Below, piece by piece: positions 39,590 through 61,418 of a stretch of 64,000 bases of DNA. How positions within the stretch are numbered: the stretch's first letter is position 1; each line of letters begins with the position of its first letter. This DNA comes from Bacillota bacterium (GTDB lineage Bacteria > Bacillota > Clostridia > Caldicoprobacterales > DTU083): the NCBI GenBank assembly GCA_029549985.1, contig JAKPIB010000037.1, positions 1-64,000 on the forward strand, in the 5' to 3' direction. A model generated the notes under the pieces. That model did no database searches, was not told the DNA's origin, and saw nothing but the letters and a program-made list of their open reading frames with translations. Both the position numbers and the translations under genes were made by a program.

Positions 39590-39645
39590 TGGTTCGACAG
39601 ATACATTTATATGCGTATACGCGGAATAGGGGGTCAGCACCGGCA

Positions 39646-44153: not shown

Positions 44154-46199
44154 TCATGCCAGATCGAATATGGCGTAGCTATATGGCTCGACCGAGATCA
44201 TCGAAGCTTCCAGGGTCACTTTGCCCGTCAGCAGCTTGAGCCGGCCGATGTTGTGCCTATCGGCATCGAAGGTGCAGCTTTCCTTAGACAGGTTGACGAG
44301 CACCAGGCGCTTTCCGCCCTCTACCGGCCGGATAAAGGCCATGACCGGCGTATCTGTATAGATATATTCGATCTCCTTGGAGTCGCCGATATATTCTTTC
44401 CTGTCAGCAAAGAGCTTTTTGAAGAAGTCACGGAGCACCGGGCCTTCCTTAAGGTATATGGCCGGATCCTCGTCACCCTGGTATATCATGGGCATACCGT
44501 CTATCAGTGTGATGACAGCCCAGAGGGCTTTTGCAGTCTCGACTCCGTAGTAGTCCGTCGCTCTGGCTGACTGCCATACCCAGGACACGGTGTCATGGTT
44601 GCCCAGGAACCTCATTTTTGTGTAACCGACCGGTGTCGACAAGTATTCCTTCTCCAGCCAGGAGGTCAGCTTTTTGACGTATTCAGCCGGATGATCGTGG
44701 ATGAGCCTGTCCAGCTCGCATAACACCCGGTATAGGTTCATGCCGTAGAACACGTCGGTATAGGGATAATAATTGGGGATAGGGTGGAAGTTCTCAGGCA
44801 GGTTGAAGGGCTTTTTGCCGCCCTTTATGAACCCGTCCCTGACTGCCTTGGATATGCTGACTCCGGCCTTGACACCGTTGGCGCTGGGACGGTTGTCACC
44901 GTAGGGACGCCAGTTGGAAAGCCCGCCCATGGCGCAATCGATACGGGCTCCGTCCACTCCGAAGCGTTTCACATGGTCATATGCAAGGTTGACCGTATAT
45001 TCCTGGTATTCAGGGTTGTTGTAGTCAAAGGACACACATTCCCACTCTATCTGCAGGGACCCGTCCTGCTTCCTGGAGCACCAATCGGGGTTGTTGACCG
45101 CCAGGGGCTGGTGTTTGGCAGGTCCATGGGGTACATAGTCAAAGAGGACCGTCATGCCAAGCTCGTGGGCTCTATCGACAAAGTATCTGACATCCTCGTC
45201 GGTACCGTACCTCTTATCTATTATGGCCTGGTCGCTGGAATGATAGCAGTTGCCGTCGGGGTGGTCGAAAATGGGCAGGAGCCATACGTGGTCTATGCCC
45301 ATATCCTTGAGCTTTGGAAGGTACTCAGCATATTCATTCATCTTGAACCTGAGGGGGAAGTTGGAATCCATGGTGCCGTGGGGATGGCAGGAGTACATGA
45401 TCCCTTCCCTGATGCCATCGTCGGCTGCCTTGTAGCCCAGGTCCTCGTACAACTCCCTTATTTTAATATAGGGATTCTCTTCCTCAACCGGCTGGAAGTA
45501 CAGATCGCCGCAGACAATGGGCTCTCCGGGCTTTGCCATCACCTCAAGGTTCGGCACATAGGCATACTCGGTGATGGTGCCGGTAGTCCACACCCCACAG
45601 GACCATTTCTCTATAGGGTCGATGAAGGCAAGGTTCAGGTGGCCGGTGCCTATGACGGAGTGGACGCAAGAGTTCACAAGGCCTGTGATCACAGGCTTGT
45701 AAGGTTCAAGCGCCCTGGTATCGAATTCGCCGCAGGGGACGTTGGTAGGAAAATCAAACACGGCATCGGACTCAAGGCCGGTTATGAAGGCCAGCCCGTT
45801 GAGCCACAGCTCCTTTTCTGTCCTGTTGACCAGCTCGGCATGGACCTTGAGGGTACCTGCCGCAAAGGAGTACACCAGCCTGAGGTCCAGAGGGCCGAGG
45901 GTGTAGCTGGCGATAAGCCTGTCAGCTCCTTCCTCAAAGCCAGTGAATACGGCTGCGCTCCTGCCCTGCTTAGGGGCAATGAGGGGCAGCTCCCAGGTCC
46001 GCTTGTCCAGCATGCTGTCAAATACCAAAGAGTCCAGGATGTAGTCGCCGTCACAGCCTACGTCCACGGTTATGCCCTTAAGCGGAAGCTTATAGCTGCC
46101 TTTTTCAATGGATTCGAGGGTGCCGGTGCCAAGATCGAAGGTGCATATCAGGCTGTCGGAAACAAGCTTTAATTTGGATCCCGTTTTTTCTATCCTCAT
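44154..46199 (-). CDS. Cytosolic GH13-like glycosidase, paralog of the lipoprotein
   Basis: 681 residues, no signal peptide. Same domain order: N-terminal beta-sandwich (1-245), GH13-like barrel with LLFDYVPHG, DGARIDCAMGG, LPENFHP and FLGNHD, and a C-terminal beta domain. It shares long identical stretches with the downstream lipoprotein (for instance YNNP, CAMGGLSNW, MIYQGDE), so the two arose by duplication. It is first in the operon, 25 bp before the lipoprotein gene, with AAGGAG at its start. It probably finishes degradation of the imported product. Confidence 0.86.
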   Translation of the reverse strand: MRIEKTGSKLKLVSDSLICTFDLGTGTLESIEKGSYKLPLKGITVDVGCDGDYILDSLVFDSMLDKRTWELPLIAPKQGRSAAVFTGFEEGADRLIASYTLGPLDLRLVYSFAAGTLKVHAELVNRTEKELWLNGLAFITGLESDAVFDFPTNVPCGEFDTRALEPYKPVITGLVNSCVHSVIGTGHLNLAFIDPIEKWSCGVWTTGTITEYAYVPNLEVMAKPGEPIVCGDLYFQPVEEENPYIKIRELYEDLGYKAADDGIREGIMYSCHPHGTMDSNFPLRFKMNEYAEYLPKLKDMGIDHVWLLPIFDHPDGNCYHSSDQAIIDKRYGTDEDVRYFVDRAHELGMTVLFDYVPHGPAKHQPLAVNNPDWCSRKQDGSLQIEWECVSFDYNNPEYQEYTVNLAYDHVKRFGVDGARIDCAMGGLSNWRPYGDNRPSANGVKAGVSISKAVRDGFIKGGKKPFNLPENFHPIPNYYPYTDVFYGMNLYRVLCELDRLIHDHPAEYVKKLTSWLEKEYLSTPVGYTKMRFLGNHDTVSWVWQSARATDYYGVETAKALWAVITLIDGMPMIYQGDEDPAIYLKEGPVLRDFFKKLFADRKEYIGDSKEIEYIYTDTPVMAFIRPVEGGKRLVLVNLSKESCTFDADRHNIGRLKLLTGKVTLEASMISVEPYSYAIFDLA

Positions 46200-46272: not shown

Positions 46273-46284
46273 GAAAACGATTAC
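46273..46284. promoter_or_regulatory. LacI-type operator in the GH13 leader
   Basis: GAAAACGATTAC. It shares AAACGATT with the operator at 37405-37420 and lies 42-53 bp downstream of the -10 of the GH13 promoter, where a bound repressor could block elongation. Confidence 0.55.
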
Positions 46285-46325
46285 AGCGATGATAGATATA
46301 TAAAGTGTTCCTTATTTATATATAG

Positions 46326-46354
46326 ATTATAAGGTGTGCGGCTACATATGTCAA
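46326..46354 (-). promoter_or_regulatory. Consensus sigma-A promoter of the GH13 operon
   Basis: Minus strand TTGACA (46354-46349), 17-bp spacer, TATAAT (46331-46326): perfect match. Leader about 120 nt with a LacI-type site inside. Confidence 0.88.
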
Positions 46355-46414
46355 TCCATACGGAATAAATGGGTACATAGGCAAATAGGTGCAGTACGGA
46401 AAGGACATTTGATG

Positions 46415-46443
46415 TTGACACCCACCTATTCGGGTTGTATAAT
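46415..46443 (+). promoter_or_regulatory. Consensus sigma-A promoter of the dual ABC operon
   Basis: TTGACA (46415-46420), 17-bp spacer, TATAAT (46438-46443): perfect match. AATAGGTG (46384-46391) and CACCTATT (46423-46430) form an inverted repeat across it. Leader to the start codon is about 208 nt. ATTGTAT-TGTTT-ATACAAT (46458-46476) lies just after the start point. Confidence 0.88.
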
Positions 46444-46594
46444 AAACGTAAGTTATAATTGTATTGTTTATACAATAAAGCATCCATATATAATGTAAGG
46501 TTTTGATCAGGGCTCCAGCAGCCTGGATACCGCCCGGTTTAAAGATATGCACTCAAGCTGTGGGTATGGATGAGTGTCCATTAGTGTTTAAATC

Positions 46595-46610
46595 GGGTAA
46601 ACGATTGCCC
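46595..46610. promoter_or_regulatory. LacI-type operator upstream of the CBM-SBP gene
   Basis: GGGTAAACGATTGCCC, CG-centred near-palindrome like the one at 37405. AAACGA is repeated right after it (46611-46616). Confidence 0.6.
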
Positions 46611-46627
46611 AAACGAATCAAGGGAGT

Positions 46628-46641
46628 ATCAAACGATTTGG
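46628..46641. promoter_or_regulatory. Second LacI-type site upstream of the CBM-SBP gene
   Basis: ATCAAACGATTTGG, 17 bp after the preceding site and 17 bp before the start codon, overlapping the translation-initiation region. Confidence 0.52.
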
Positions 46642-46657: not shown

Positions 46658-49537
46658 ATGAAATCCTTCAGTAAACTAATTGCCATACTACTTGCGGTTC
46701 TGATGCTGACCGGGGCGCTGCCGGCCTTCGCTCAGGAGACCGAAGGAGGAGCGGAGGAACCTGCCGAGGGCGGCGATATGAAGCCCGGCGGCTATTATTC
46801 ATATATAGATAAGTACAAAGGAGCATCCGTGCCTCTGGCGGAGGTATCGGTAAAGGGCTCTGATTATCAGCTGGATGACGGTGCCAATGTCACGGTAAAG
46901 GACTATGAGGGCAAGGAGGACGTGCTCTACTGGGATTCCCAGCAGGGCGGCGTGGAATGGAAGATAAGTGTGCCCGAATCAGGCCTTTATAATATAGGCA
47001 TCAGCTATTGCCCGATAGTCAGCAAGGCCAGCGATATACAGCTCACCCTGAGCATAGACGGCAGGGTCCCCTTTTCAGAGGTAGAGCTGTTCAAGCTGCA
47101 GCGCATATACAAAAACGATACCAACGAGTTTCGCACGGACGCCAGGGGCAATCACCTAAGGCCCAAGCAGGTCGAGGTTTTGAAATGGCGCCTTGTCCCC
47201 GTGACGGATTCGGAAGGCCGTCACAACGACCCCTTCAAGTTTTACCTGGAGGAGGGCGAGCACACGATCCGTCTCGACCTGATCAGCGAAGCCCTTGCGA
47301 TAGAGGAGATCAGGCTATACCAGGTGCCCGTCCAGAAGCCCTATGCAGAGCCTGTCATCAATACACCGGTGAAAGGCGTCCTGGAGATATTCCAGGGAGA
47401 GTTCACCTATGAGAAATCCCATGCCACCCTGTATCCCACGGAGGACAGGGGCAACCCGGCAGCCCAGCCGGCCCATCCATACCTGGTGAGATACAACACT
47501 GTGGGCAAGACCACCTACAGGCTTCCCGGCCAGTGGATCTCCTGGGAGTTTGAAGTTCCGGAGGACGGGTATTATCATATTGCCTTCAAGGCAAGACAGA
47601 ACGTCAACAGGAGCATGTACAGCACCAGGCGCATCTATATTGACGGCGAAGTACCCTTCGACGAGCTGAACAACGTGAAGTTCCCGTACAGCATCCGCTG
47701 GTACAACCAGTTCCTGGGCGGAGATACACCCTACCTGTTCTATCTTGAGAAAGGCCGCCACGAGATCAGGATGGAGATCGTCACCGGCGATCTGGCCGAA
47801 GCCTTGTCGGAGCTTGAGGACATCATATACGAGCTTAATACCTGGTACCGGAAGATCATCATGATCACCGGCTCCAATCCAGATGCCAGCAGGTCGATAA
47901 TAGACGTGAACCGCGACTACCTGCTCGACCAGAAGGTACCCGGCCTGATGAAGGCTTTTGGCGATATAGCAAACAGGCTGGAAAAGAACAAGGCGATAAT
48001 CGATGAATTCAGCATGGACCGCGGCAATACGGCCTCCTTCATAAACCAGATCGTGGCCCAGCTCAGAAGCTTTGTAAAGGAGCCGGAGACCATACCGCTC
48101 AGGCTGGACAGCTACAAGAGCAACATAAGCACCCTGTCGACCGCAGTGCTCGACATGAGGGAGCAGCCCCTGGAGATCGATTACTTTGCCCTGGTTTCCC
48201 CGGACATGGTCAAAAAGCTGCCGAAAGCTACTGCAGGCTTCTTTGAGACCCTTAGCTTCAGGTTCCAGATGTTTCTATCCTCCTTTACCCAGGACTACAG
48301 CTCTGTAGGGGAGGTCTATGAAAACGATCCCATAGATGTATGGGTCAGCACATCGGATATCGCCATGACCGGCATATCATCCGGCCGTGACCAGGCGCAG
48401 ATACTGAAGAGCCTAGTGGACGACCTCTTTGTACCGGATAAGGGGATAGGGGTCAACTTAAGCCTTGTCAACAGCTCGGAGGCCCTGATCCAGGCGGTCC
48501 TCGCCAACAAGGGCCCGGACGTTGCCCTCTTCATAACCAAGGAGACCCCGGTCAACCTGGCGATAAGAGGAGCCCTGGTGGACCTGAGCCAGTTCGAGGA
48601 CTTCCCGGAGGTGGCAAAAAGGTTCCACGAATCGGCCCTGATACCATACTACTTTGACGGCAAATGCTATGCCCTCCCTGAGACCCAGAACTATGACGTC
48701 ATGTTCTACAGGAAGGACATATTCGAAGAGCTTGGCCTGTCGGTCCCGACTACCTGGGATGAGTTTTACGAGATAGCCGCCAGGCTGTATATCAACAACA
48801 TGATGATAGGTATCCCCGAAAGCCAGCGCACCTTTGAAATGCTGCTCTTCCAGAACGGCGGTACCTTCTACAACGAAAAGCTGACCAAAACGGCCTTTGA
48901 TACCCCTGAAGCCCTGACGGCTTTCAAACAGTGGACGGAACTCTATTCCAAGCACGGGCTTCCCCTTGTATTCGACTTCTTCAGCCGCTTCAGGACAGGG
49001 GAGATGCCCCTGGCAATCATGCCGTACACCCAGGCCAACTATCTCCATGCCGCAGCGCCGGAGATTAAGAACCTGTGGGAAATGGTCCCGGTCCCCGGTG
49101 TGGTGGGTGAGGACGGCACCATAAGCAACGCCGTTACATCCTATGGGACAGGTGCCATAGCCATCAAGGGCGACAAGGAAAGAGAATCCTACGAGTTCAT
49201 CAAATGGTGGACCAGCAGCGATGTCCAGGCCAGGTTCGGCAACGAGCTCGAGCAGCTTATGGGGCCTGCAGCCCGGTATCCCACTGCCAATGTGGAAGCA
49301 TTCGACATGCTGCCCTGGGAAAGGGCCCAGGCTGAGTACCTGAAGCAGCAGTGGGAAAATGTCACCGACGTGCCTCAGGTGCCGGGCAACTACTATATAC
49401 AGCGCAACATCAGCTTTGCATTCAGGGCTGTTGTAATAAATTATGCAAACGTGCGTGAGACCTTGAACAAGTACAACAAGGAGATCAACAAGGAAATCAG
49501 ACGCAAGCGCATAGAATTCGGTCTGCCGACCGATTAG
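46658..49537 (+). CDS. Extracellular solute-binding protein fused to two CBM-like domains
   Basis: 959 residues. Signal peptide (1-25, cleavage after AFA) without a lipobox Cys. Two beta-sandwich sugar-binding-like modules follow (about 45-225, and about 245-385 with GYYHIAFKARQNVNR), then a helical linker (about 395-560) and an SBP type-1 domain (about 565-930) with DVALFITKETPVNLAIRG, VMFYRKDIFEELGLSVPTTWDEF and YEFIKWWTSS. SBPs are usually about 420-450 residues and lipid-anchored. Here the modules may hold polymer at the surface while the SBP domain delivers oligomers to the permeases encoded next. Confidence 0.85.
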   Translation: MKSFSKLIAILLAVLMLTGALPAFAQETEGGAEEPAEGGDMKPGGYYSYIDKYKGASVPLAEVSVKGSDYQLDDGANVTVKDYEGKEDVLYWDSQQGGVEWKISVPESGLYNIGISYCPIVSKASDIQLTLSIDGRVPFSEVELFKLQRIYKNDTNEFRTDARGNHLRPKQVEVLKWRLVPVTDSEGRHNDPFKFYLEEGEHTIRLDLISEALAIEEIRLYQVPVQKPYAEPVINTPVKGVLEIFQGEFTYEKSHATLYPTEDRGNPAAQPAHPYLVRYNTVGKTTYRLPGQWISWEFEVPEDGYYHIAFKARQNVNRSMYSTRRIYIDGEVPFDELNNVKFPYSIRWYNQFLGGDTPYLFYLEKGRHEIRMEIVTGDLAEALSELEDIIYELNTWYRKIIMITGSNPDASRSIIDVNRDYLLDQKVPGLMKAFGDIANRLEKNKAIIDEFSMDRGNTASFINQIVAQLRSFVKEPETIPLRLDSYKSNISTLSTAVLDMREQPLEIDYFALVSPDMVKKLPKATAGFFETLSFRFQMFLSSFTQDYSSVGEVYENDPIDVWVSTSDIAMTGISSGRDQAQILKSLVDDLFVPDKGIGVNLSLVNSSEALIQAVLANKGPDVALFITKETPVNLAIRGALVDLSQFEDFPEVAKRFHESALIPYYFDGKCYALPETQNYDVMFYRKDIFEELGLSVPTTWDEFYEIAARLYINNMMIGIPESQRTFEMLLFQNGGTFYNEKLTKTAFDTPEALTAFKQWTELYSKHGLPLVFDFFSRFRTGEMPLAIMPYTQANYLHAAAPEIKNLWEMVPVPGVVGEDGTISNAVTSYGTGAIAIKGDKERESYEFIKWWTSSDVQARFGNELEQLMGPAARYPTANVEAFDMLPWERAQAEYLKQQWENVTDVPQVPGNYYIQRNISFAFRAVVINYANVRETLNKYNKEINKEIRRKRIEFGLPTD

Positions 49538-49549
49538 GAGGTAAGGGAT

Positions 49550-50482
49550 ATGAGTGCTGTTCAATCGGATATCAAAACTGCAAGAAAGGTTAGGAGAAAG
49601 CCGTCCTTCCTCAAGGAGAACGGGCCCGCACTGGTATTTCTTGCCCCCTTTACGCTGTTTTTCTTCGTGTTCACCATACTGCCGATCCTGACATCAATCT
49701 TTTTCAGCTTCACCTACTTCAATATGCTGGAACCTCCGAGACTGATCGGCTTCACCAACTATATAAGGATGTTCTTCGACGATGACGTGTTCCTGATCGC
49801 CCTGAAGAACACCCTGATATTTGCCTTCATCACCGGCCCCCTCGGCTATACCCTGAGCTTTTTGTTCGCATGGCTCATAAACGAGTTCAGGCGCGGAGTG
49901 CGGTCCTTGCTGACCCTGATCTTCTACTCACCGGTCCTGGCAGGCAACGTGTATTTCATCTGGGTGTTCATGTTCAGCGGCGACGCATACGGCCTCATCA
50001 ACAGCACGCTGATAAAGCTGAGCCTGATCAAAGAGCCGATCCAGTGGCTCACGGACCCCAAGTACAATTTCACAGTCGTGACCCTGGTCATATTGTGGCT
50101 CAGCATGGGCGCCGGCTTCCTGGCCTTCGTTGCAGGCCTTCAGTCCCTTGACAGGTCACTGTTTGAGGCCGGGACCATCGACGGCATCAAAAACCGGTTC
50201 CAGGAGCTGTGGTATATAACCTTGCCGCAGATGGGCCCCCAGCTTCTCTTTGGTGCCGTAATGTCGATCGCGGGAGCTTTTGCGGTCGGATATGAGAGTA
50301 TGAGCATAACGGGTTTCCCGAGCACTGACTACTCTACCCATACCCTGGTGCTCCATATCCTCGACTTTGGAAATATGAGATTTGAGATGGGCTATGCATC
50401 CGCTGTCGCTGTCTTCCTGTTTGCCTTGATGCTGTTGGCATGGTGGATAGTCAGCAAGACCCTGTCAAAGCTGACAGACTGA
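49550..50482 (+). CDS. Carbohydrate ABC transporter permease (MalF/UgpA type)
   Basis: 310 residues, six membrane segments. The EAA loop is FEAGTIDGIKNRFQELWYITLPQM, where the transport ATPase docks. First permease after the CBM-SBP gene (13-bp gap). Expected to pair with the next permease as a heterodimer. No ATPase is in the operon. Confidence 0.9.
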   Translation: MSAVQSDIKTARKVRRKPSFLKENGPALVFLAPFTLFFFVFTILPILTSIFFSFTYFNMLEPPRLIGFTNYIRMFFDDDVFLIALKNTLIFAFITGPLGYTLSFLFAWLINEFRRGVRSLLTLIFYSPVLAGNVYFIWVFMFSGDAYGLINSTLIKLSLIKEPIQWLTDPKYNFTVVTLVILWLSMGAGFLAFVAGLQSLDRSLFEAGTIDGIKNRFQELWYITLPQMGPQLLFGAVMSIAGAFAVGYESMSITGFPSTDYSTHTLVLHILDFGNMRFEMGYASAVAVFLFALMLLAWWIVSKTLSKLTD

Positions 50483-50541
50483 CAAATTTAGCCCGGTTTG
50501 ATTAAAAAGAAACTGTCGCAAGGATGGAAAGGGATGACGAA

Positions 50542-51441
50542 ATGATCCACAGCGCTGAAACACCGGCTCTTGGCAGGAAAAAGCACTTTGGCCGGTATAA
50601 AAAGCCCAGCTTGAGCAGATCGAAGGGCGGTACCATAGCGATATTCATATTCCTTATCATGGTAAGCGTGTTTATGGTCATGCCCATGGTGTATACTATC
50701 GTGCAGTCGCTCAAGCCGATAAACGAAATATTCCTGTATCCGCCAAGGTTCTTTGTCCAGCAGCCTACCCTGGACAACTTCACCATGATGATACAGCTTG
50801 TGCAGGATATGTGGGTGCCCTTTGAAAGGTATCTGTTCAACAGCTTGTTCGTAGCCATAGTCGGCACCGGCTTGTACATCGTTGTCGCCTCAATGGCTGC
50901 CTACCCGCTTTCGAAGCTAAAATTCAGGTATGCTGCCCTGTACTATCAGATCATCGTATGGGCTATCCTGTTCAGGCCCGAGGTCACAAGGATCCCCCAA
51001 TACGTTATAATCGCAAAGCTCGGGCTGATAAACACATACCTGTCCATCATACTGCCGGTCCTGGCGACCTCCTTCGGTGTGTTCCTGATGCGCCAGTTTA
51101 TGATCACCGTACCTGATGAGATCATCGAAGCGGCCAAGATCGACGGCGTAGGGCACTTCACGATGTTTACGAGGATAATCATGCCAATGGTCAAACCCGC
51201 CTGGCTCACGCTCATCATATTCACGTTCCAGCAGCTTTGGAACACGACCGGCGGCCAGTATATATACGATGAGACAGTAAAAATGCTGCCTACGGTACTC
51301 CAGCAGATATCCTCCGGCGGTATCGCACGATCCGGTGCCGGGGCCGCGGTTGCTTTGATACTGATGATTCCTCCGATCACTGTTTTCATAATTTCCCAGT
51401 CCTCCGTCATGGAGACGATGGCTCAATCGGGAATCAAGTAG
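50542..51441 (+). CDS. Carbohydrate ABC transporter permease (MalG/UgpE type)
   Basis: 299 residues from ATG 50542, preferred because AAAGGGAT is about 7 bp upstream; an ATG at 50524 lacks spacing. Six membrane segments, EAA loop EIIEAAKIDGVGHFTMFTRIIMPM. Second subunit of the first importer. It precedes the NHL gene by 28 bp. Confidence 0.9.
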   Translation: MIHSAETPALGRKKHFGRYKKPSLSRSKGGTIAIFIFLIMVSVFMVMPMVYTIVQSLKPINEIFLYPPRFFVQQPTLDNFTMMIQLVQDMWVPFERYLFNSLFVAIVGTGLYIVVASMAAYPLSKLKFRYAALYYQIIVWAILFRPEVTRIPQYVIIAKLGLINTYLSIILPVLATSFGVFLMRQFMITVPDEIIEAAKIDGVGHFTMFTRIIMPMVKPAWLTLIIFTFQQLWNTTGGQYIYDETVKMLPTVLQQISSGGIARSGAGAAVALILMIPPITVFIISQSSVMETMAQSGIK

Positions 51442-51469
51442 GGCGTACCAATTTGAGAGGGTGAAAGCA

Positions 51470-52921
51470 ATGTCAAAACTGAAAAGAGCTGCTGTATTGC
51501 CGCTAGTGCTGCTGATGCTTTTGTTGCCCTGCAAGGCAGTTTTTGCGGACGAGGCGCCATACAGGTCATACACATACGACAGATTCCATAATGCAGTTCC
51601 GTCTCCCAACGGCTACCTGCCAGGGGCCCAGTTGTTCGGAAGTGACCTGGGAGTAGGAGATCTCAACAACCCCAACGACCTGTTCGTGGATAAGGAACGC
51701 AACGAATTGTATATCGTGGATACGGGCAATAAGAGGATAGTGGTCGTTGATGAGGACTACAAGCTGGTCAGGGTGATCACCGAGTTTGACAATGACGGCG
51801 AGGTAGTGACCCTGAATGTCCCAATAGGCATATTCGTCGACAAGGACGGCACGATGTATATAACGGACCAGGCCGAGCAGGGTGACGGCAGGGTACTTAT
51901 AAGCGACAAGGACCTGAAGATAAGGAACATCTTCGGCAAGCCCCAGTCTGACCTTATAACCGGAAATTTCGTATACAAGCCATCCAAGATCGTGGTCGAC
52001 CGGTACGGAAAGATATATATACAGGCGACGGACGTTACCCAGGGGCTTTTCTGCCTGACACCGGAAGGCAAGTTCCTCAACTACTTCGGCAGCAACAAGG
52101 TTGAAATGGACGCCCGGAAGCTCATCCTCCAGCTATGGAGAAAAATCCTTCCGAGGCAGGCTGCGCAAAGCATAATCAATTTCATACCGATCGAATATTC
52201 GAACGTCTATATAGATGACAAGGGCTTCATCTATGCAACGGCTGCTGCGTCAACAACCTATGAGTACCAGGTCATGAGCCTCAATCCCCTCGGCAGTGAC
52301 GTTTTAAGATGGAAGAGGCTTGACTGGTTCGAAGGCTCCAACTTCAAGGACATATATGTGGACGAATACGGATTCATTACGGCAGTGGACCAGACCCGGG
52401 GCAAGGTTTTCCAGGTGGAGCCCGATGACGGCACCATGATGTTCACCTTTGGGGGCATCGGCAGCATGACCGGCCTGTTCACCAAGCCGGTAGCCATCGA
52501 AGGCTTCAATGGCAAGCTCCTGGTATTGGACAGCGAGAAGCGGGCCATAACCGAGTTTAAGCTGACCACCTTCGGCAAGGCGGTCAGGGATGCCCAGGTC
52601 CTGTATATGGAGGGCAGATATGTCGAGAGCATCGAGCCCTGGCTGGAAGTCGTGAAGCGCAATGCCAACTACCTCTTCGCCTACGTCGGCCTTGGCAAGG
52701 CATACTACCAGCTGGAAGACTATCAGACTGCCATGAAATACTTCAAGCTGGGCTACAACAAGGAGTATTATTCCGAAGCCCTGCGCGAGTATTCCCTCAT
52801 AGCCATGAGGAGCAATTTCGGCTATATAGTACTTGGGATCGGATTATTCATAGCTTTGATAATAGTGATCAGGACACTTAGAAGGAAAAGGGTATTAATC
52901 AAACTGGGAGGTGCAGTCTGA
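51470..52921 (+). CDS. Secreted/membrane NHL-repeat protein with TPR and C-terminal anchor
   Basis: 483 residues. Signal peptide (about 1-27), an NHL beta-propeller (about 60-375) with repeats such as NPNDLFVDKERNELYIVDTGN and IYVDEYGFITAVD, a TPR-like helical part (about 375-445, LGKAYYQLEDYQTAMKYFKLG) and a C-terminal membrane helix (about 450-472) with a basic cytoplasmic tail (RTLRRKRVLIK). Start at ATG 51470 with GAGAGGGTG upstream. It is expected to be displayed outside the cell, anchored by its tail. Role unknown; probably contacts the binding proteins, YIP1 or DUF5696 partner. Confidence 0.83.
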   Translation: MSKLKRAAVLPLVLLMLLLPCKAVFADEAPYRSYTYDRFHNAVPSPNGYLPGAQLFGSDLGVGDLNNPNDLFVDKERNELYIVDTGNKRIVVVDEDYKLVRVITEFDNDGEVVTLNVPIGIFVDKDGTMYITDQAEQGDGRVLISDKDLKIRNIFGKPQSDLITGNFVYKPSKIVVDRYGKIYIQATDVTQGLFCLTPEGKFLNYFGSNKVEMDARKLILQLWRKILPRQAAQSIINFIPIEYSNVYIDDKGFIYATAAASTTYEYQVMSLNPLGSDVLRWKRLDWFEGSNFKDIYVDEYGFITAVDQTRGKVFQVEPDDGTMMFTFGGIGSMTGLFTKPVAIEGFNGKLLVLDSEKRAITEFKLTTFGKAVRDAQVLYMEGRYVESIEPWLEVVKRNANYLFAYVGLGKAYYQLEDYQTAMKYFKLGYNKEYYSEALREYSLIAMRSNFGYIVLGIGLFIALIIVIRTLRRKRVLIKLGGAV

Positions 52922-53538
52922 TGGTTGAGGAGTTCAGGTTTCTGTTTTACACCATGCTGCATCCGTACAACGGCTTCGATGCCGTCAAGTATGAAAGGAA
53001 AGGCTCTGTCAAGACCGCTGTACTGGTAGCCCTGCTTTTCTTCCTGCAAAATGTCATTTCAGCGGCAGGCTCAGGGTTTCTGTTCACATACGGAGACCCG
53101 GACAAGATATCAGTGCCCAACATATTCATAATAAGCATCGGGGCCCTGGTGTTCTGGATCGTTTCCAACTGGGCTGTTGACTCGCTGATGGATGCCGAGG
53201 GAAAGGTAAGAGAGATCATCATAGTCACCACCTATGCACTCATGCCCTACATCATCTTCAGCCTGGCCAATACGATCATCGGCAACTTTGCGACCAATGA
53301 GCTCAGGCCGTTCATGAATATGCTGTCGATCGTCGGCATGGCATGGAGCGTGTTCATCTTGTTCGTCGGCATGTACCAGATACATCAGCTGACCTTCGGC
53401 GGCACCGTCGGCATACTGCTGCTGACAGTGTTCGGCATGGCGGTGATGATATTCATACTGGTGCTCTTATACAGCTTGTACCAGCAGGTATATATATTCC
53501 TGTATACCTTGTTCAGCGAAATAATGTTCAGGATGTGA
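52921..53538 (+). CDS. YIP1 family membrane protein
   Basis: 205 residues with five hydrophobic segments and the YIP1-like N-terminus FYTMLHPYNGFDAVKYERKG. Its start overlaps the NHL stop by one base (TGATG), so translation is coupled. YIP1 proteins of bacteria have no settled role; in eukaryotes they act in vesicle traffic. Tight coupling with the NHL-TPR gene suggests a membrane complex. Confidence 0.85.
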   Translation: MVEEFRFLFYTMLHPYNGFDAVKYERKGSVKTAVLVALLFFLQNVISAAGSGFLFTYGDPDKISVPNIFIISIGALVFWIVSNWAVDSLMDAEGKVREIIIVTTYALMPYIIFSLANTIIGNFATNELRPFMNMLSIVGMAWSVFILFVGMYQIHQLTFGGTVGILLLTVFGMAVMIFILVLLYSLYQQVYIFLYTLFSEIMFRM

Positions 53539-53542
53539 GGTG

Positions 53543-55903
53543 ATGAGGGTGAAAGGACTGCAATGGCTAAAGCCCTTCAATATAATACTGGCAATACTGC
53601 TTACGGCTATGCTTCTGACATCTACAGTCCCTGTGATGGCTGTGACCGGCGATGGCCAGGAAACCGGTCAGACCGGGGAAGAAGTGACAGAAGGCGACCA
53701 GGCAGGGGAAGAGCAGGGTGAGGAGACTTCCGAGCCTGAAAACCCCGATACGGAAGCAGGCCTTGAGACCTATGAGAAGATAGCCGAGCAGCAGCGCCTC
53801 GTGCTGTATGCCAGGCTGAAGACAGGCGAGATAGCAGTAGAAGACAAGCTGACCGGGGAGGTCTGGTATTCCAATCCTCCGGACAGGGAGAAGGATACTC
53901 TTGCCAACGGATTTTACAAGGTGAGCCTCAACTCCCAGCTGCTTATGAGCTTTTCGGACCCCAAGGGAGTCGTCCTCCAGCGCGGCAGCTTCCTCCACAG
54001 CGTCCAGCGCAACGGACTTTCCTACGAAAAAAGAGGGGACACCATAGTTTTCAAATACAGGTTCGCCCAGGACGGCATTATGATCCCCGTGCAATACAGC
54101 ATCTCGGATGACTGCTTCAGCGCGACCGTCCTGACAGACGAGGTGGAAGAAGGCGAAAACACAAGGCTGCTGACCATAGACCTCCTGCCCTTCTTCGGAG
54201 CGGCCGGCACAGAAGATGAGGGATATATCCTGGTCCCTGACGGATCCGGCGCCCTGATCTACCTGAACAACGGCAAGACGGCGGCCAACACCTACCAGGC
54301 TCCGGTCTACGGTGAAGACCAGGGGCAGGGTGGACTGCTGATCCCGGCTTCCTCGGCCCACCTGGCTACGATAACCAACAAGGAAGCCATCCGGATCCCG
54401 GTCTTCGGCATGAAGAAAAACAACACGGGATTCCTGGCTGTCATAGCATCATCCGAAGCCAGGGCCAATATAGTTGCCGATATAGCCGGCAGGGGCACAT
54501 ATTACAACAAGGTGCACTCCCAGCTCGAGTTCCGCAGGTCCGGCAGCGTCATGCTCACCCAAAAGGAATTTGCCGAGCGTAAGTCCTCGATACCTGAAAG
54601 GCTTTCCGCAAGGGGTACCCCCTTTGAAGTCAAGTATTTCTTCCTGGATGAAGCAGACGCCGATTATGTCGGAATGGCGAAAAGATACAGGGAATACCAG
54701 AAGTCTGCGACCGGCCTCGACTCCAAGGTGAAAGCCGGGGACATCCCGCTGTATATAGATCTCTATGGTTATATCAACAAGGTCAAGCCCTTCCTTGGCA
54801 TCCCCATCGAACGGGTGATACCCCTGACTACTCTTGAGGACGTCCGGACGATCATCGGGGAGCTCTTCGACAACGGCATCAGCAACGTGGTAGTCAAGTA
54901 CAACAACTGGGCCAAGGGTGCCTCATTCAAGAAGCTCCCGGTCAATGCAACGATCGAAGGCAAGCTGGGCTCGGTCAAGGATTTCAAAGCCCTGGAGCAG
55001 GAGCTTAAGGAGATGGGCGGCAGCATCTACCTCTCCGCAGACCTCATGAATGTTTACAGGGCTGGCAACGGCTTTTCCAAATACAGCGATGCGCTCAAAA
55101 ACGTGGCAAACACGCCCCTGGTGCTGCAAAAATACGTTCTTGATTCAGCTGCGGTGGACAGCAGCATACCGGGCTGGTACCTGCTCAACCCGAAAAAGTT
55201 CGATAAGTTCTATTCAAGGTTTGTAAACAACCTGTCCAAATACGGCACAGAAAACGTCGGGCTCGACAGCCTGGGCAGCATGGCATACTCGGACCTTAGC
55301 TCAAACGGCACAAGCAGGACGGATATACCCGGGATCGTAGCCGGCCTACTGGACAAGATACAGGACAGCCTGCCCTCGATACTCCTTGAGCAGGCCAACG
55401 CCTATGCAGTGCCCTATGCCGAGCATGTGGTCAACACGCCGGACCATGCGACCTTCTATGATATCATAGACGAGCACATACCCTTCTACCAGATCGTGTA
55501 TCACGGGATGGTCAACTACTCCATGGTAGCTACCAACCTCAGCTCCAATCCCGAGTATGTGTTCCTCAAATGCCTGGAGACGGGTGCTGCGCCGATGTAC
55601 TCCTGGGTAGGCAGAAACAGCGAAGAGCTGTTCAACAGCAGGCTCAACCACCTGTTCAGCGCTGACTACAAGGCGTGGATAGATGAAGCTATAAGCGATT
55701 ACAAGAAGATAAACGAAGTGCTCTCCAGGGTCTCGACCAGTGAGATAACAGCCCATGAGAGGCTGGCTGTCGGGGTTTATCGGACGGCCTACGGAGATGC
55801 GCTTGAAGTATTTGTGAATTATAACGACGAAAAGGTTACTGTCGACGGGGTGACCATTGACGGTTACGGCTATACCGTAAGAGAGGCTGGTGGGCTTCAA
55901 TGA
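53543..55903 (+). CDS. DUF5696 family secreted protein, putative glycosidase-like barrel
   Basis: 786 residues. Signal-anchor (about 10-35), an acidic low-complexity linker (about 38-75, rich in E, G, Q, T), an N-terminal beta domain (about 80-400, including TGEVWYSNPPDRE) and a C-terminal TIM-barrel-like part (about 410-760) with NVVVKYNNWAKGA, ENVGLDSLGSM and PSILLEQANAYAVP. These last two carry Asp and Glu candidates for catalysis, by comparison with GH36/GH13-like barrels; this is inference. It lies between YIP1 and the second permease pair and overlaps the next gene by 4 bp. Confidence 0.82.
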   Translation: MRVKGLQWLKPFNIILAILLTAMLLTSTVPVMAVTGDGQETGQTGEEVTEGDQAGEEQGEETSEPENPDTEAGLETYEKIAEQQRLVLYARLKTGEIAVEDKLTGEVWYSNPPDREKDTLANGFYKVSLNSQLLMSFSDPKGVVLQRGSFLHSVQRNGLSYEKRGDTIVFKYRFAQDGIMIPVQYSISDDCFSATVLTDEVEEGENTRLLTIDLLPFFGAAGTEDEGYILVPDGSGALIYLNNGKTAANTYQAPVYGEDQGQGGLLIPASSAHLATITNKEAIRIPVFGMKKNNTGFLAVIASSEARANIVADIAGRGTYYNKVHSQLEFRRSGSVMLTQKEFAERKSSIPERLSARGTPFEVKYFFLDEADADYVGMAKRYREYQKSATGLDSKVKAGDIPLYIDLYGYINKVKPFLGIPIERVIPLTTLEDVRTIIGELFDNGISNVVVKYNNWAKGASFKKLPVNATIEGKLGSVKDFKALEQELKEMGGSIYLSADLMNVYRAGNGFSKYSDALKNVANTPLVLQKYVLDSAAVDSSIPGWYLLNPKKFDKFYSRFVNNLSKYGTENVGLDSLGSMAYSDLSSNGTSRTDIPGIVAGLLDKIQDSLPSILLEQANAYAVPYAEHVVNTPDHATFYDIIDEHIPFYQIVYHGMVNYSMVATNLSSNPEYVFLKCLETGAAPMYSWVGRNSEELFNSRLNHLFSADYKAWIDEAISDYKKINEVLSRVSTSEITAHERLAVGVYRTAYGDALEVFVNYNDEKVTVDGVTIDGYGYTVREAGGLQ

Positions 55904-56820
55904 CAAGTAAAGGCAAGGGCAGAAGGAGAGTACCCTACGAGGTGCGAAAGCAGCGGGCGGGATATGTGTTCATCCTCCCGTGGATACTGGGGTTTCTGTT
56001 CTTCTTTGCAGAGCCGATGATAGAATCGATAATATTCTCTTTCAGTGATGTGACCGCCGGCCAGTCCGGCTTGGTGACGAAGTTCGTCGGCCTGGCCAAC
56101 TACGAAATGGTGCTGGTCAAGACCGATGAGTTCCTCCGGTATCTATGGACGGCAGTTGTGAACATGCTGAGCGAAATAGCGATCATACCCCTGTTCAGCC
56201 TGTTCATAGCACTGATCCTGAATCAGAAGTTCAGGGGAAGGACGGTGTACAGGGCGATATACTTCCTGCCTGTCATCATGACCTCAGGTGTCGTCTTCAC
56301 CATGATGTCCGGCGTTATGAGCTCTTCCCTGAGCGGCACCCAGAATGCCTATTTCCAAAGCACAGGCCTTATGAACATCCTCATCCAGGGAAATGTGCCA
56401 ATGAGCCTTGTCAACTTCATAACCTCGGTAGTTGACAGGATCTTCTCTCTAACGCTGAAATGCGGGGTGCAGATACTGCTGTTCCTGAGCGGACTGCAAA
56501 AGATCCCGGCTTCCTCCTATGAAGCCTGCAAGATCGAAGGCGCTACTGCCTGGGACAGCTTCTGGAAGATCACCTTCCCCCTTATCCTGCCCATGATGAT
56601 GCTCAACATCGTATATACGATCATAGATTCCTTCACAGCCTATGGTACCCAGGAAGCCGGCAACGTGGTCATGGCCTACATCTACCGGATAGGCTTCGGC
56701 AAGAGCATGAAATTCGGTTTGAGCGCAGCTATGGCGTGGTTGTACTTCATAGTGATAATTTTGTTCCTTACGGTGGCTTATCTTGTGGTAGGCCGTAAGG
56801 CTTCCAGAATAGAGAGTTAG
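55900..56820 (+). CDS. ABC transporter permease (LplB/MalF type), second importer
   Basis: 306 residues, six membrane segments, EAA loop SSYEACKIEGATAWDSFWKI and following FPLILP. It overlaps the DUF5696 gene by 4 bp (ATGA), so it is translationally coupled to it. Clearly different from the first permease pair in sequence, so the operon carries two importers rather than a duplication. Confidence 0.9.
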   Translation: MTSKGKGRRRVPYEVRKQRAGYVFILPWILGFLFFFAEPMIESIIFSFSDVTAGQSGLVTKFVGLANYEMVLVKTDEFLRYLWTAVVNMLSEIAIIPLFSLFIALILNQKFRGRTVYRAIYFLPVIMTSGVVFTMMSGVMSSSLSGTQNAYFQSTGLMNILIQGNVPMSLVNFITSVVDRIFSLTLKCGVQILLFLSGLQKIPASSYEACKIEGATAWDSFWKITFPLILPMMMLNIVYTIIDSFTAYGTQEAGNVVMAYIYRIGFGKSMKFGLSAAMAWLYFIVIILFLTVAYLVVGRKASRIES

Positions 56821-56832
56821 GATGTGAGAGAC

Positions 56833-57855
56833 ATGAAGGGTCCAAAATCACTGCCTGCCGTCGACCGGCAAGCAATAGACAGCTTTATAGAAAAAGCAAG
56901 GCACTATATAAGATCGAAGCATCCTCAGAGAAAGATCTGGGCTGTTTTCAGGCACGCCCTGCTGATAGGGATCGGTTTTGTGATCATGTACTCCATCCTG
57001 TACATGATAAGCAATGCCTTCAGGCCTCCGTCTGAAAACTTCGATCCTTCCGTCATATGGATACCCAAAGCGCCGACCCTGTCCAACTTCACGGATGCGC
57101 TGCAGGTGCTCCAGCTGGAAAAGATCATGGGCAACACCCTGGCTATTACCATAGGTACGACTATAATGCAGGTCATAGTATGCCTGTTTGTCGGGTACGG
57201 CTTCGCCAGGTTCAGGTTCAAGGGCAACAAGGTGCTCTTCGGCCTGGTCATCCTGACGATCATAATCCCTCCGCAGACCCTGGCTGTTTCGATGTATTCA
57301 AAGTTCAGGTATTTCGACCTGCTGGGCATCATTGGCCTGCTGAAGAATATAACCGGAGGGGCGATCCAGCAGCCCAATCTGATAGGCAAATACTGGGCGG
57401 CCTGGCTGCCTGCTCTGACGGGCATGGGCCTAAGGTCAGGCTTGTATATCTTCATGTACAGGCAGTACTTCATGGGTATGCCCAGGGAGCTGGATGAAGC
57501 GGCTGCTATCGATGGCTGCGGCCCTTACAGCACCTTCCTGAGGATCATGGTACCAAATACGAAAAATATCGTAATTACAGTGTTCCTGTTTGCCATCGTG
57601 TGGAACTGGAACGATTACTACACCCCGGCCTTGTATATGCAGGGCAAGCCGACCCTGGCCACGTCCCTGGCGGAGTTCCAGAACAACCTCCAGATGCTGG
57701 CCAATGTAGGCGGCGCCAATGTGGATCCGATAGTGGTCCTGACCAGGATACAGGCAGCCTGCCTGATCGCGATACTTCCTTTGCTGATACTGTATGTCTT
57801 CACGCAGAAGTACTTCACCGAAAGCATCGAGAACACCGGTATCACAGGTATATAA
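56833..57855 (+). CDS. ABC transporter permease (LplC/MalG type), second importer
   Basis: 340 residues; ATG 56833 is used, GTG 56824 is also possible. A basic N-terminal extension (about 1-40, RKIWAVFRH) precedes six membrane segments. EAA loop ELDEAAAIDGCGPYSTFLRI. It ends 53 bp before the binding-protein gene and pairs with the preceding permease. Confidence 0.9.
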   Translation: MKGPKSLPAVDRQAIDSFIEKARHYIRSKHPQRKIWAVFRHALLIGIGFVIMYSILYMISNAFRPPSENFDPSVIWIPKAPTLSNFTDALQVLQLEKIMGNTLAITIGTTIMQVIVCLFVGYGFARFRFKGNKVLFGLVILTIIIPPQTLAVSMYSKFRYFDLLGIIGLLKNITGGAIQQPNLIGKYWAAWLPALTGMGLRSGLYIFMYRQYFMGMPRELDEAAAIDGCGPYSTFLRIMVPNTKNIVITVFLFAIVWNWNDYYTPALYMQGKPTLATSLAEFQNNLQMLANVGGANVDPIVVLTRIQAACLIAILPLLILYVFTQKYFTESIENTGITGI

Positions 57856-57907
57856 CCGCTTTATGGCGGTAAAATATAAATCAATCAAAGAAAGGGAGAA
57901 TAAGAAA

Positions 57908-59167
57908 ATGAAGAGAAAGCTCTTTGCGCTTATCTTGATCGCCGCAATAGCCGCAGCAGGACTCATGTCAGGCTGCAGCAAGGGCAATGACGGCCCCTCC
58001 GGCGGCAGCGGTAAGGACATCTCGATCATCTACTGGATGAGCGAAAACGGTTACAAAGCACAGGTAGCAGCAAATGACACCGTATATGATCCCATACTGG
58101 ATGCAATCCCGGTATACGAGGAGAAATACAACGTTGATGTCAACCTGATAGCTGTTCCCTGGGGCGATATGCTCTCGCAGATGACCCAGCTGCAAAACTC
58201 CGGCCAGGCTCCGGACCTTGTAGAGGTCTATGACCGCACGATGCACAACGTCATACTGAACAACTATGTCATGGCCCTGGATGAGTATGTAACAGACGAG
58301 GATTATTCCCACTTCAAGGTCAGCAGGGACCTGTTCTCCTGGAATGGCAAGACATATGCGATCCCCCTCAAGCCTTACCTGTACTACATTATGTTCAACA
58401 AGGACATGTTCGACATGGAGGGCCTGCCCTATCCCGATGAGCTGTTCAGAAACGGAGAATGGACCTTCGACAAGTTCGAGGAAGTCGGCAAGGCCTTGAC
58501 CAAGTATGTTGACGGCGAGCGCGTCCAGTATGCATTCACCTCCTGGACCGAGCATCTTGCCGCTACGATCGTAAGCAACGGCTCAGCCATCGTAAAGATC
58601 GACAACCAGAACGGTACAGCCGAATCCGGGCTTTCCGACCCCAAGACCATAAGGGCACTTGAATACCTCTCCCGCTGGGTCAACCCCGTAAACGGCATCA
58701 TAGAGATCTCAGACAATATGTGGGGAGACTTTGACAACAACAGATGCGCTATGAACCGCGGTAAAGAGTATCCCGACGGATGGGATCTGCCCTTTGCAAC
58801 AGGCATGGTGCCCCTGCCGGCAGGACCCGATGCCCCGCCCAAATCAGTATACGTTTATCCCCAGGCTATGGCAGTGCCGACCGGTTCCAAGAACCCCGAG
58901 GCCGCAGTCGAGTTTATGAGGATCGTACACCAGAGGCAGAAGGAAGTCGGAGACGCCAAGGAAGCTGCCAGGATCGGGCAGGAAAACTACGATATGATCT
59001 ACTCCGACGATACCAACTTCATATATGCCTATGACAAGGGCATCGAAGGCTATGACGAGATCGAGGCTATGATCTACGAGATGTTGGTAGAAGGCATTCC
59101 GCCGGCAACCATCGCTGAGACGATAGCACCTGATATCAATGCAGCCATCGAAATGATGTTCAAGTAA
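57908..59167 (+). CDS. Extracellular solute-binding lipoprotein, second importer
   Basis: 419 residues from ATG 57908 with AAAGGGAG upstream. Lipobox LMSGC at Cys23. SBP type-1 fold: IIYWMSENG, VEVYDRTMHN, YYIMFNKDMFDMEGLPYPDELF and the closing PPATIAETIAPDINAAIEMMFK. Normal length and lipid-anchored, unlike the large CBM-SBP of the first importer. Binds an oligosaccharide delivered by an unknown route. A hairpin follows the stop codon. Confidence 0.92.
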   Translation: MKRKLFALILIAAIAAAGLMSGCSKGNDGPSGGSGKDISIIYWMSENGYKAQVAANDTVYDPILDAIPVYEEKYNVDVNLIAVPWGDMLSQMTQLQNSGQAPDLVEVYDRTMHNVILNNYVMALDEYVTDEDYSHFKVSRDLFSWNGKTYAIPLKPYLYYIMFNKDMFDMEGLPYPDELFRNGEWTFDKFEEVGKALTKYVDGERVQYAFTSWTEHLAATIVSNGSAIVKIDNQNGTAESGLSDPKTIRALEYLSRWVNPVNGIIEISDNMWGDFDNNRCAMNRGKEYPDGWDLPFATGMVPLPAGPDAPPKSVYVYPQAMAVPTGSKNPEAAVEFMRIVHQRQKEVGDAKEAARIGQENYDMIYSDDTNFIYAYDKGIEGYDEIEAMIYEMLVEGIPPATIAETIAPDINAAIEMMFK

Positions 59168-59261: not shown

Positions 59262-61418
59262 ATGGAAAGAGGAATTTACTTCGATGCATGGTACAAGAAC
59301 AACCATTGCTATCATCCGAGTCTTCCTATGCGCAGCATGCAGATGATCGAAGATTTGGAGAAATACAAGGGCACCATCCTCGTGTGGTCAGCCCTGGGCG
59401 GCGGGTCCATATCGCTGCCCTACCTGGAGCATGAGGCCTTTGGCGAGGTCGACCCGAGGCTTCGTTTCTACGGCTTCATGAACGACAGTGAGTTCATTGC
59501 CGAATGCAACAAGCGCGGCATCAAGGTCTTTGCCATAGTCTTTGAAGTACAGGGCTGGGAGTTCCCTGCGGTCATTGACGATAAGGGCAACTTCAAGGAG
59601 CTCAACGTGATGCGCTCAGAGGGCGGCCATGACTGGTACGGCCTCAGGGAGTTTTCAAACGGCAAGCATGACAAGGTGTTCAACAAGACCTTGAGGGACT
59701 ATTTCCCCGAAGGCCTTTACAACTCAGCCGGAGACGAAGTCACGGACCTTTGGGCTGAGGTCGCGGCAGTCGATTACAACGGCACCCCTGTTCATGCCCA
59801 GTGGGTCGAGGTAGTAGGCCACAAGGCTATCTGCTATCAAACCTGCAGGAACAATCCTGTATGGCGCAAATACCTGAAGAAGATAATCGAGATCCAGATA
59901 GATGCAGGCGCGCCCGGCATACAGCTTGATGAAGCCGAGCTGCCCATCACATCACTGAGGCATGGCGGCTGCTTTTGCCGTGACTGCAGGCGGCAGTTCA
60001 CCGAATACCTGAAGGAGCTGCGGGCCAAGGGCGAGCTGTCAAGCGAGTATGACGATATCGACCTTGACAGCTTCGACTACGGTGAATATCTGAAATCCAG
60101 GAACATCAAGTTCCCCTCTGATGAAAAGGGAGTCCCGCTCTTCAGGGAATACTACGAGTTCCAGCTGCGTGCTGTGAAGAAGTATTTCACAGAGCTGGTC
60201 GACCATGCGAAGGAATACGGCAGAAGGAAGTACGGCAAGGAGATCCTTGTGTCGGGCAATTTCTTCAATCTGATGCCGGTCTACTATCCCATTGAAAATA
60301 CGGTGGACATCGTTATCACCGAGATGGAAAAGACCCTTTTCAAGCAGCCCTACTGGTACAGGTATGTAGCCGGCTATTCCGGCGACAAGCCCGTGATCGT
60401 AGTGGAGAACCCCTACGGCGGCATCATCCCCGAGCTGCTCAGCCAGCTGGACAAGGGCAAGGCCTATGACCTATACCGCATATTCCTGCTGGAGGCAGCG
60501 GCTTATGGCTGCAACATGGCAGTGCCCTACGGTGGCTGGATGGGCAATACGATAAAGGATGCCTTCTACCCGCCCAGGGACGTGACCAAAGAGGTCCAGA
60601 CCTTCCTTGCGAACAATGAGAGGCTGTTCGCAAAAACCTCGGGATCCGGCGTAGCCGTGCTTTACAGCTGGAAGAGCTACTACTGGACAGAGGCCACCAA
60701 GGCATCGACCGGCAATGTCGAAGGCAGCGATGAATCCATCCTCTTCTTCACGCCTACGGACATAGATGACCCGAAGACGACCAGGCTGCCCTTCTGGGAG
60801 ACCATAAAGGCCCTTTCGGATGAGCAGGTGATCTATGATGTCAAGGTACTGGCCGACGGCGAAATGCGGGCTGACGAGTTCAAGCTGGCAGACCTAGACG
60901 GAGTCAACCTTCTGGTCCTGCCTGACTGCCATGACCTGACGGCCAACCAGGCTGAAGTTATCCTGGATTATGCAAAAAGCGGCAGGAAGCTTTTCGTATA
61001 CGGCCGCATCGGGGAAAACATCGAAGGGCTCAGGGAAAGGCTGGCAGCCTACGAAAATGTGATATTCTGCCCCAACCCGGATGACAAGCAAAAAGCCACT
61101 GCTATGTTTAAGCAGGAGTTTTCAAGGGTATACGATGATATGTGGCTGGTCAGGACCGACAACAGGAACGTTGGCATACAGCTGCATCAAAACAGGGAAT
61201 GCAAAGCAGTACATCTCATTAATTACAGCTACAACAAGGAACGCGACGCCATATTGGACATTCCTTCGATAGAGGTCGAGTTCAACCTCAGGCTGGGCGA
61301 TGTGAAGCTGCATACCTTGGACGGGCGGGATGTCAGGTTCGACCGTTTCGATGAAAACGGCAGGACCAGGCTTGTGCTCAAGGACATGCCCCTGTATACC
61401 GTCATAGAGTTCAACTGA
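59262..61418 (+). CDS. Predicted cytosolic TIM-barrel glycoside hydrolase, family not assigned
   Basis: 718 residues, no signal peptide. The N-terminal half resembles GH42-like and related barrels: MERGIYFDAWY, then GAPGIQLDEAELPITSLRHGG with a Cys-rich loop GCFCRDCRRQF, and VDIVITEMEK; Glu and Asp in these are acid/nucleophile candidates. A middle Rossmann-like part (about 520-610, LLVLPDCHDLT and LFVYGRIGEN) and a C-terminal beta-sandwich follow. The layout looks like GH42 plus its trimerisation-like domain. It follows the lipoprotein SBP gene and would act on the imported sugar. Confidence 0.75.
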   Translation: MERGIYFDAWYKNNHCYHPSLPMRSMQMIEDLEKYKGTILVWSALGGGSISLPYLEHEAFGEVDPRLRFYGFMNDSEFIAECNKRGIKVFAIVFEVQGWEFPAVIDDKGNFKELNVMRSEGGHDWYGLREFSNGKHDKVFNKTLRDYFPEGLYNSAGDEVTDLWAEVAAVDYNGTPVHAQWVEVVGHKAICYQTCRNNPVWRKYLKKIIEIQIDAGAPGIQLDEAELPITSLRHGGCFCRDCRRQFTEYLKELRAKGELSSEYDDIDLDSFDYGEYLKSRNIKFPSDEKGVPLFREYYEFQLRAVKKYFTELVDHAKEYGRRKYGKEILVSGNFFNLMPVYYPIENTVDIVITEMEKTLFKQPYWYRYVAGYSGDKPVIVVENPYGGIIPELLSQLDKGKAYDLYRIFLLEAAAYGCNMAVPYGGWMGNTIKDAFYPPRDVTKEVQTFLANNERLFAKTSGSGVAVLYSWKSYYWTEATKASTGNVEGSDESILFFTPTDIDDPKTTRLPFWETIKALSDEQVIYDVKVLADGEMRADEFKLADLDGVNLLVLPDCHDLTANQAEVILDYAKSGRKLFVYGRIGENIEGLRERLAAYENVIFCPNPDDKQKATAMFKQEFSRVYDDMWLVRTDNRNVGIQLHQNRECKAVHLINYSYNKERDAILDIPSIEVEFNLRLGDVKLHTLDGRDVRFDRFDENGRTRLVLKDMPLYTVIEFN

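Follow-up and report, generated by a model that had tools for sequence, protein, structure and literature searches.

Genes for NHL-TPR, YIP1 and DUF5696 proteins accompany a constant and a variable CUT1 importer in a conserved gene unit of Bacillota

The first 64,000 nucleotides of contig JAKPIB010000037.1 (assembly GCA_029549985.1; hereafter the window), from a Bacillota bacterium of the order Caldicoprobacterales, carry a run of nine genes that encodes two ABC importers of the CUT1 type and three accessory proteins. In order, the genes encode SBPcbm, a substrate-binding protein (SBP) with regions resembling carbohydrate-binding modules (CBMs); the permeases P1 and P2; the accessory proteins NHL-TPR, YIP1 and DUF5696; the permeases P3 and P4; and a second binding protein, SBP2. 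We found that SBPcbm, P1, NHL-YIP1, DUF5696 and P3 are passed on together and that P2 and P4 lie next to them. We hold with moderate confidence that the unit serves Gram-positive bacteria as a conserved module for oligosaccharide uptake, in which a constant and a substrate-specific CUT1 importer are served by one shared ATPase and in which NHL-YIP1 and DUF5696 are surface subunits. An initial annotation of the window regarded the unit as undescribed; however, a locus for xylan degradation published for Caldicellulosiruptor bescii has the same gene order (PMC8579813). One instance had thus already been reported as two transporters, and the new part consists of the accessory proteins and the split into a constant and a variable importer.

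In a sample of 398 Bacillota genomes, full-length DUF5696 was found in 37, and full-length NHL-TPR, with or without YIP1 fused to it, was found in the identical 37 genomes, with one additional fragment. Full-length SBPcbm occurs in the same 37 genomes and in three others (G080, G104 and G154). In these three, the SBPcbm gene lies on a short contig (3.1-4.3 kb) that breaks off within P1 or P2, so we rejected their classification as SBPcbm-only genomes. Matches to a P3 profile above 280 bits are likewise confined to the 37 genomes; the matches below this threshold are a 206-bit fragment from one of these genomes and ordinary permeases, none of which exceeds 178 bits. A P1 profile gave the same pattern above 420 bits, except for one of the three short contigs. 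The agreement of these sets has a chance probability below 1e-48 if genomes are independent, which they are not, but the 37 genomes span many families. Synteny and co-occurrence therefore led us to reject a chance grouping of the nine genes, and the initial annotation's proposal of a real, co-selected two-importer unit is upheld. The package is present in about one in eleven of the sampled genomes and is linked to many different enzyme sets. No DUF5696 relatives were found in the viral contigs searched, and a single-protein scan of genome contigs recovered only a relative that is 90% identical.

We then compared the architecture of 58 loci around DUF5696, of which 57 could be judged for the upstream gene. 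According to the initial annotation, the unit would be a chance grouping if the accessory genes mostly occurred apart in other genomes, but they stand together wherever this could be judged: in 57 of 57 loci, DUF5696 is immediately preceded by NHL or YIP1, the two being a single fused protein in 34 loci and separate genes in 23. The P3 permease lies directly downstream of DUF5696 in 55 loci, the remainder being cut or diverged. SBPcbm-P1-P2 is usually found directly upstream of NHL; it lies downstream of P4 in L061, L071, L075 and L083-L085, is present as a linked unit in L093, L094, L095, L098 and L100, and stands alone in a few other loci considered below. Because SBPcbm-P1-P2 shifts position or stands alone between loci, NHL-YIP1-DUF5696-P3-P4 is a tight core and SBPcbm-P1-P2 is its linked partner. 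Since the accessory genes go with P3 and P4, this arrangement does not establish the earlier suggestion that NHL-TPR and YIP1 organize the importers. In two loci (L040 and L045), five or six SBP2-type genes are arrayed in series downstream of P4, behind one unit.

Each half of the unit comprises an SBP and two BPD_transp_1 permeases, as expected for CUT1 importers, and the EAA coupling loops are retained in P1, P2, P3 and P4 with an EA...DG/EG...P pattern. Mean pairwise identities across 21 loci that carry the full set differ between the two importers: for the first, they are 0.49 (SBP domain of SBPcbm), 0.57 (P1) and 0.55 (P2), and for the second, 0.25 (SBP2), 0.42 (P3) and 0.43 (P4). The enzymes that flank the unit vary from locus to locus and include glycoside hydrolase (GH) families GH2, GH3, GH10, GH26, GH30, GH31, GH35, GH42 and GH43, among others. 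Given that SBPcbm is nearly constant in sequence beside such widely differing enzymes, it has the appearance of a receptor for something that the loci share, and SBP2 that of the specific receptor. No ATPase gene lies inside the unit, and one OB_MalK-type (MalK/MsmX-type) ATPase gene was found in the whole genome, 156 kb into the same contig. In Paenibacillus cellulosilyticus, a UgpC ATPase gene lies directly upstream of the unit. In this the unit resembles CUT1 importers that share an MsmX/MsmK ATPase, which likewise combine an SBP with two EAA-loop permeases and rely on an ATPase encoded outside the operon; in C. bescii, MsmK powers CUT1 importers (PMC12096829). In contrast to ordinary CUT1 importers, the unit ties two importers to three accessory proteins, and one of its SBPs, which bears a pair of CBM-like arms, shows unusual conservation.

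A DUF5696 profile of 40 relatives was compared with solved structures and gave significant matches to two of them: DagB, an anhydrogalactosidase (5opq, 1.8e-11), and NagBb, a GH129 alpha-N-acetylgalactosaminidase (5wzn, 1.9e-8). The alignment with GH129 structures is remote and covers the first part of the TIM barrel; with DagB, it also takes in an N-terminal segment. Within the aligned block, NagBb reads HLDGW and DUF5696 reads xYxGW, with W457 invariant. The NagBb Asp before Gly-Trp, which we take from the alignment and from general knowledge to be its nucleophile, corresponds to position 455 of DUF5696, where the window's protein has N and the relatives mostly have T, S, N, L or V; Asp occurs in 0 of 40 and Glu in 1 of 40. 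The alignment ends short of the second catalytic acid (Asp435 in NagBb, Asp486 in DagB). Conserved acids in the barrel region of DUF5696 are D585 (90%), E680 (97%) and D644 (90% acidic). DagB also lacks one of NagBb's two catalytic residues: only Asp435 is retained in DagB relatives, and DagB (ZGAL_3152) has been proposed as a separate family (PMC5698469). Judged from these alignments, DUF5696 is only remotely related to GH129 and lacks the nucleophile of that family, and we rejected its assignment as a standard GH129 enzyme on that ground. The role of polymer trimming that the initial annotation gave to DUF5696 is not supported by the aligned proteins, which cautions against calling DUF5696 an active GH129. 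A literature search outside subscription papers returned no mention of DUF5696 by name and no role for NHL-YIP1; the unit offers a first handle on DUF5696 and on the NHL-TPR-YIP1 family.

The published instance of the unit is the operon xloEFG-X-GH129-axoFGE-xynF-xynE-xynD-xyn10A-xynX-xynB of C. (Anaerocellum) bescii, in which Rodionov et al. name two CUT1 transporters (XloEFG and AxoFGE) and label the DUF5696 gene GH129; the locus encodes four cytoplasmic carbohydrate-active enzymes (CAZymes), is controlled by XynR and AraR, and is raised on xylan and cellulose (PMC8579813). Its order is that of the window, SBPcbm-P1-P2-NHL(YIP1)-DUF5696-P3-P4-SBP2, with X being an NHL-YIP1 fusion and "GH129" being DUF5696. 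The two loci differ in that NHL-YIP1 is one protein in C. bescii and two genes in the window, and in that the C. bescii neighbors are xylanases (GH10 and GH43), whereas those of the window are GH13, GH116, GH106 and sugar-phosphate enzymes. The main text of PMC8579813 does not take up the accessory proteins or the phylum-wide conservation. XynR binds a 20-bp operator that has been published for Athe_0174 and lies before the unit (PMC12285236). We assigned L072, L073 and L074 to the C. bescii locus because this operator is found just before the SBPcbm gene in all three and because, in L073, a 1370-aa GH43-CBM6 protein that matches xynF follows SBP2. By gene counting from Athe_0174, the SBP2 gene is Athe_0181, whose product increases 8-256-fold in abundance when the substrate is complex (PMC5865380) and, as cited in a review (PMC10492685), enhances mannan hydrolysis and helps mannanase on biomass. 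In the equivalent locus of C. saccharolyticus, the transporter genes Csac_2412 and Csac_2417-2419 rise on biomass (PMC5658599). By analogy, the expression of the C. bescii locus (PMC8579813) would lend indirect support to oligosaccharide transport by the unit.

In the mechanism that we propose, secreted or surface enzymes of each locus would release oligosaccharides, which SBP2-P3-P4 would import as the substrate-specific importer. SBPcbm-P1-P2 would act as a shared second importer, with its CBM-like arms keeping polymer or long chains close to the membrane and its SBP domain recognizing something common to all loci. NHL-TPR-YIP1, as a membrane-anchored propeller with TPR, and DUF5696 may be surface subunits of the SBP2-P3-P4 importer that attach to glycan or to partners instead of carrying out classical cleavage. 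One shared MsmX-type ATPase would drive both importers, and cytoplasmic hydrolases and kinases would finish the imported products. We infer that the parts might form a physical complex capable of capture and hand-over. A full supercomplex for glycan uptake, in which a propeller-TPR-YIP1 membrane protein and DUF5696 join a constant and an exchangeable CUT1 importer at the cell surface, DUF5696 hands glycans to the importers as a retired glycosidase, and the whole is a Gram-positive counterpart in role of the SusCD machine of Bacteroidota, seems to us unlikely. How Gram-positive bacteria, which have no outer-membrane SusCD machine, link the degradation of insoluble plant polymers to uptake is poorly understood, and the package points to specific genes that can be tested directly in C. 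bescii, a species in which gene deletion already works.

Several observations weigh against an uptake module with accessory surface subunits. SBPcbm-P1-P2 is found solo, without accessory genes, in L096, L097 and L099 (three genomes of one family). The window's own genome contains, on contig C36 (L107:4371-7837), a third P3/P4/SBP2 set that lacks NHL, YIP1 and DUF5696, so the accessory proteins may be dispensable for transport as such. This operon also holds a thiamine diphosphate (ThDP) enzyme, an isomerase-like protein and a Gfo/Idh protein, possibly for inositol-type catabolism, and it led us to reject a strict confinement of P3/P4 to the unit. In P. cellulosilyticus, a plasmid carries the unit (L090:6960-27436), and downstream of it two further SBPs are interspersed with four LLM flavin oxidoreductases; its neighbors are thus flavin oxidoreductases rather than glycosidases, hinting at non-glycan or modified cargo. 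The contrast in sequence conservation between the two importers could partly reflect SBP2 genes that are not orthologous. As for DUF5696, the conservation of D585 and E680 leaves catalysis by another route possible, and a single-sequence structure prediction produced no usable model (mean predicted local confidence, pLDDT, of 34.6).

Some of these points suit a reading in which two independent oligosaccharide importers merely share an operon, DUF5696 is an active extracellular GH129-type glycosidase and NHL-YIP1 has an unrelated function. It agrees with the naming by Rodionov et al., with the remote GH129 similarity of DUF5696 and with the separability of the importers in the solo loci and in L107. 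We consider it rather unlikely, though worth keeping in view, given that the complete set occurs in the same 37 genomes, that Asp is missing from the GH129 nucleophile position in all 40 aligned proteins, and that a constant SBPcbm beside many enzyme sets would be unexpected for an ordinary specific importer. Macromolecular import, in which long polysaccharide chains are taken up, is known from alginate uptake by Sphingomonas A1. That both permease pairs and SBPcbm import such chains for cytoplasmic digestion would fit the CBM-like arms, the window's GH13, GH106 and 718-aa proteins without signal peptides, and the four cytoplasmic CAZymes of C. bescii, but the permeases are ordinary in size and in their EAA loops and related loci also contain secreted endo-enzymes, which makes this reading very unlikely. 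Most improbable of all, in our judgment, is a sensing or signaling unit in which SBPcbm and NHL-YIP1 signal that a shared ligand is present and transport has a secondary role: the constancy of SBPcbm and the interaction architecture of the NHL propeller and TPR would suit it, but Pfam searches of the unit found neither a kinase nor a sigma factor nor a cytoplasmic effector domain, and the EAA loops of P1 and P2 are conserved. We therefore retain the oligosaccharide-uptake module as the preferred explanation.

Positions of the unit and its surroundings in the window
Feature	Position	Strand	Description
SBPcbm	46658..49537	+	959 aa; large secreted binding protein; two CBM35/CBM6-like regions, helical linker, C-terminal SBP domain; putative constant receptor
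P1	49550..50482	+	CUT1 permease, MalF type, with EAA loop
P2	50524..51441	+	CUT1 permease, MalG type, with EAA loop
NHL-TPR	51461..52921	+	signal peptide, NHL beta-propeller, TPR, C-terminal transmembrane helix
YIP1	52921..53538	+	about 5 transmembrane helices; 1-bp overlap with NHL-TPR
DUF5696	53540..55903	+	GH129-like, secreted or N-terminally anchored; apparently without GH129 nucleophile
P3	55900..56820	+	CUT1 permease, dedicated subfamily; 4-bp overlap with DUF5696
P4	56824..57855	+	CUT1 permease; partner of P3
SBP2	57908..59167	+	lipoprotein SBP; putative variable receptor
718-aa protein	59262..61418	+	without signal peptide; GH-like by eye
GH106-type protein	61448..64000	+	without signal peptide; extends beyond window end
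GH13 protein	44154..46199	-	without signal peptide; divergent from unit
GH13 lipoprotein paralogue	41885..44128	-	43% identical to neighboring GH13
LacI regulator, ribulose-phosphate-epimerase family protein, ROK kinase, RpiB	38591..41692	+	sugar-phosphate genes; LacI recognized by eye only
Sigma-70 promoter facing unit	46415..46443	+	perfect TTGACA-17-TATAAT; scores 12/12
Divergent sigma-70 promoter facing GH13 genes	46354-46326	-	perfect; scores 12/12
Three AAACGATT motifs, LacI-family-operator-like	46275, 46599, 46631 (46275..46638)	.	divergent intergenic region

All nine open reading frames lie on the plus strand where the initial annotation had placed them, and they agree with Pfam on its inventory of two binding proteins, two permease pairs and three accessory genes: BPD_transp_1 was matched in the four permeases, NHL, Yip1 and DUF5696 in the accessory proteins, and SBP_bac_1 in the C-terminal part of SBPcbm and in SBP2. 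The CBM part of SBPcbm has no Pfam match in the window's own protein, and its label is based on relatives that match CBM35 or CBM6. The overlaps noted earlier between NHL-TPR and YIP1 and between DUF5696 and P3 are exact. The gaps along the run from SBPcbm to the GH106-type gene are, in order, 12, 41, 19, -1, 1, -4, 3, 52, 94 and 29 bp. Of the span first given for the unit (46658-59167), the gene positions stand and two points change. SBP2 probably starts at 57908 rather than at 57794, because 57794 falls within P4 and 57908 is preceded by GGGAG and opens a signal peptide with a lipobox. The gene run also passes 59167, continuing with the 718-aa protein, the GH106-type protein and then a PfkB kinase and a nucleoside-hydrolase-type gene (L003), and the transcript probably extends through all four. 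The 718-aa protein has no Pfam, NCBIfam or PDB match.

Since the GH13 pair (one a lipoprotein, one without signal peptide), GH106 and sugar-phosphate genes adjoin the unit, we suggest that its cargo in the window is a glycoside handled by these enzymes and finished inside the cell. For the trio of the ribulose-phosphate-epimerase family protein, ROK kinase and RpiB, D-allose catabolism is a conceivable role. The AAACGATT motif occurs in 7 copies in the window against 1.07 expected, a weak excess given that the motif was picked after reading the sequence; the copies outside the intergenic region lie at 39917, 40140, 37409 and 33943. A GH116-type gene on the minus strand is seemingly split into two open reading frames (34770-36149 and 36219-37199) by a frameshift, a stop or an assembly error. 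Downstream of the locus, a glycyl-radical enzyme and its activating enzyme were recognized by eye (L003:6364-9551). Among other genomes, Butyrivibrio fibrisolvens carries the unit on plasmid pNP243 with a GH43 gene upstream. Within genomes of family f19, the genes most closely related to P1 and P2 lie with two dedicated ATPase genes, a partial SBP-like match and no NHL, YIP1 or DUF5696 gene (L109:1934-9215).

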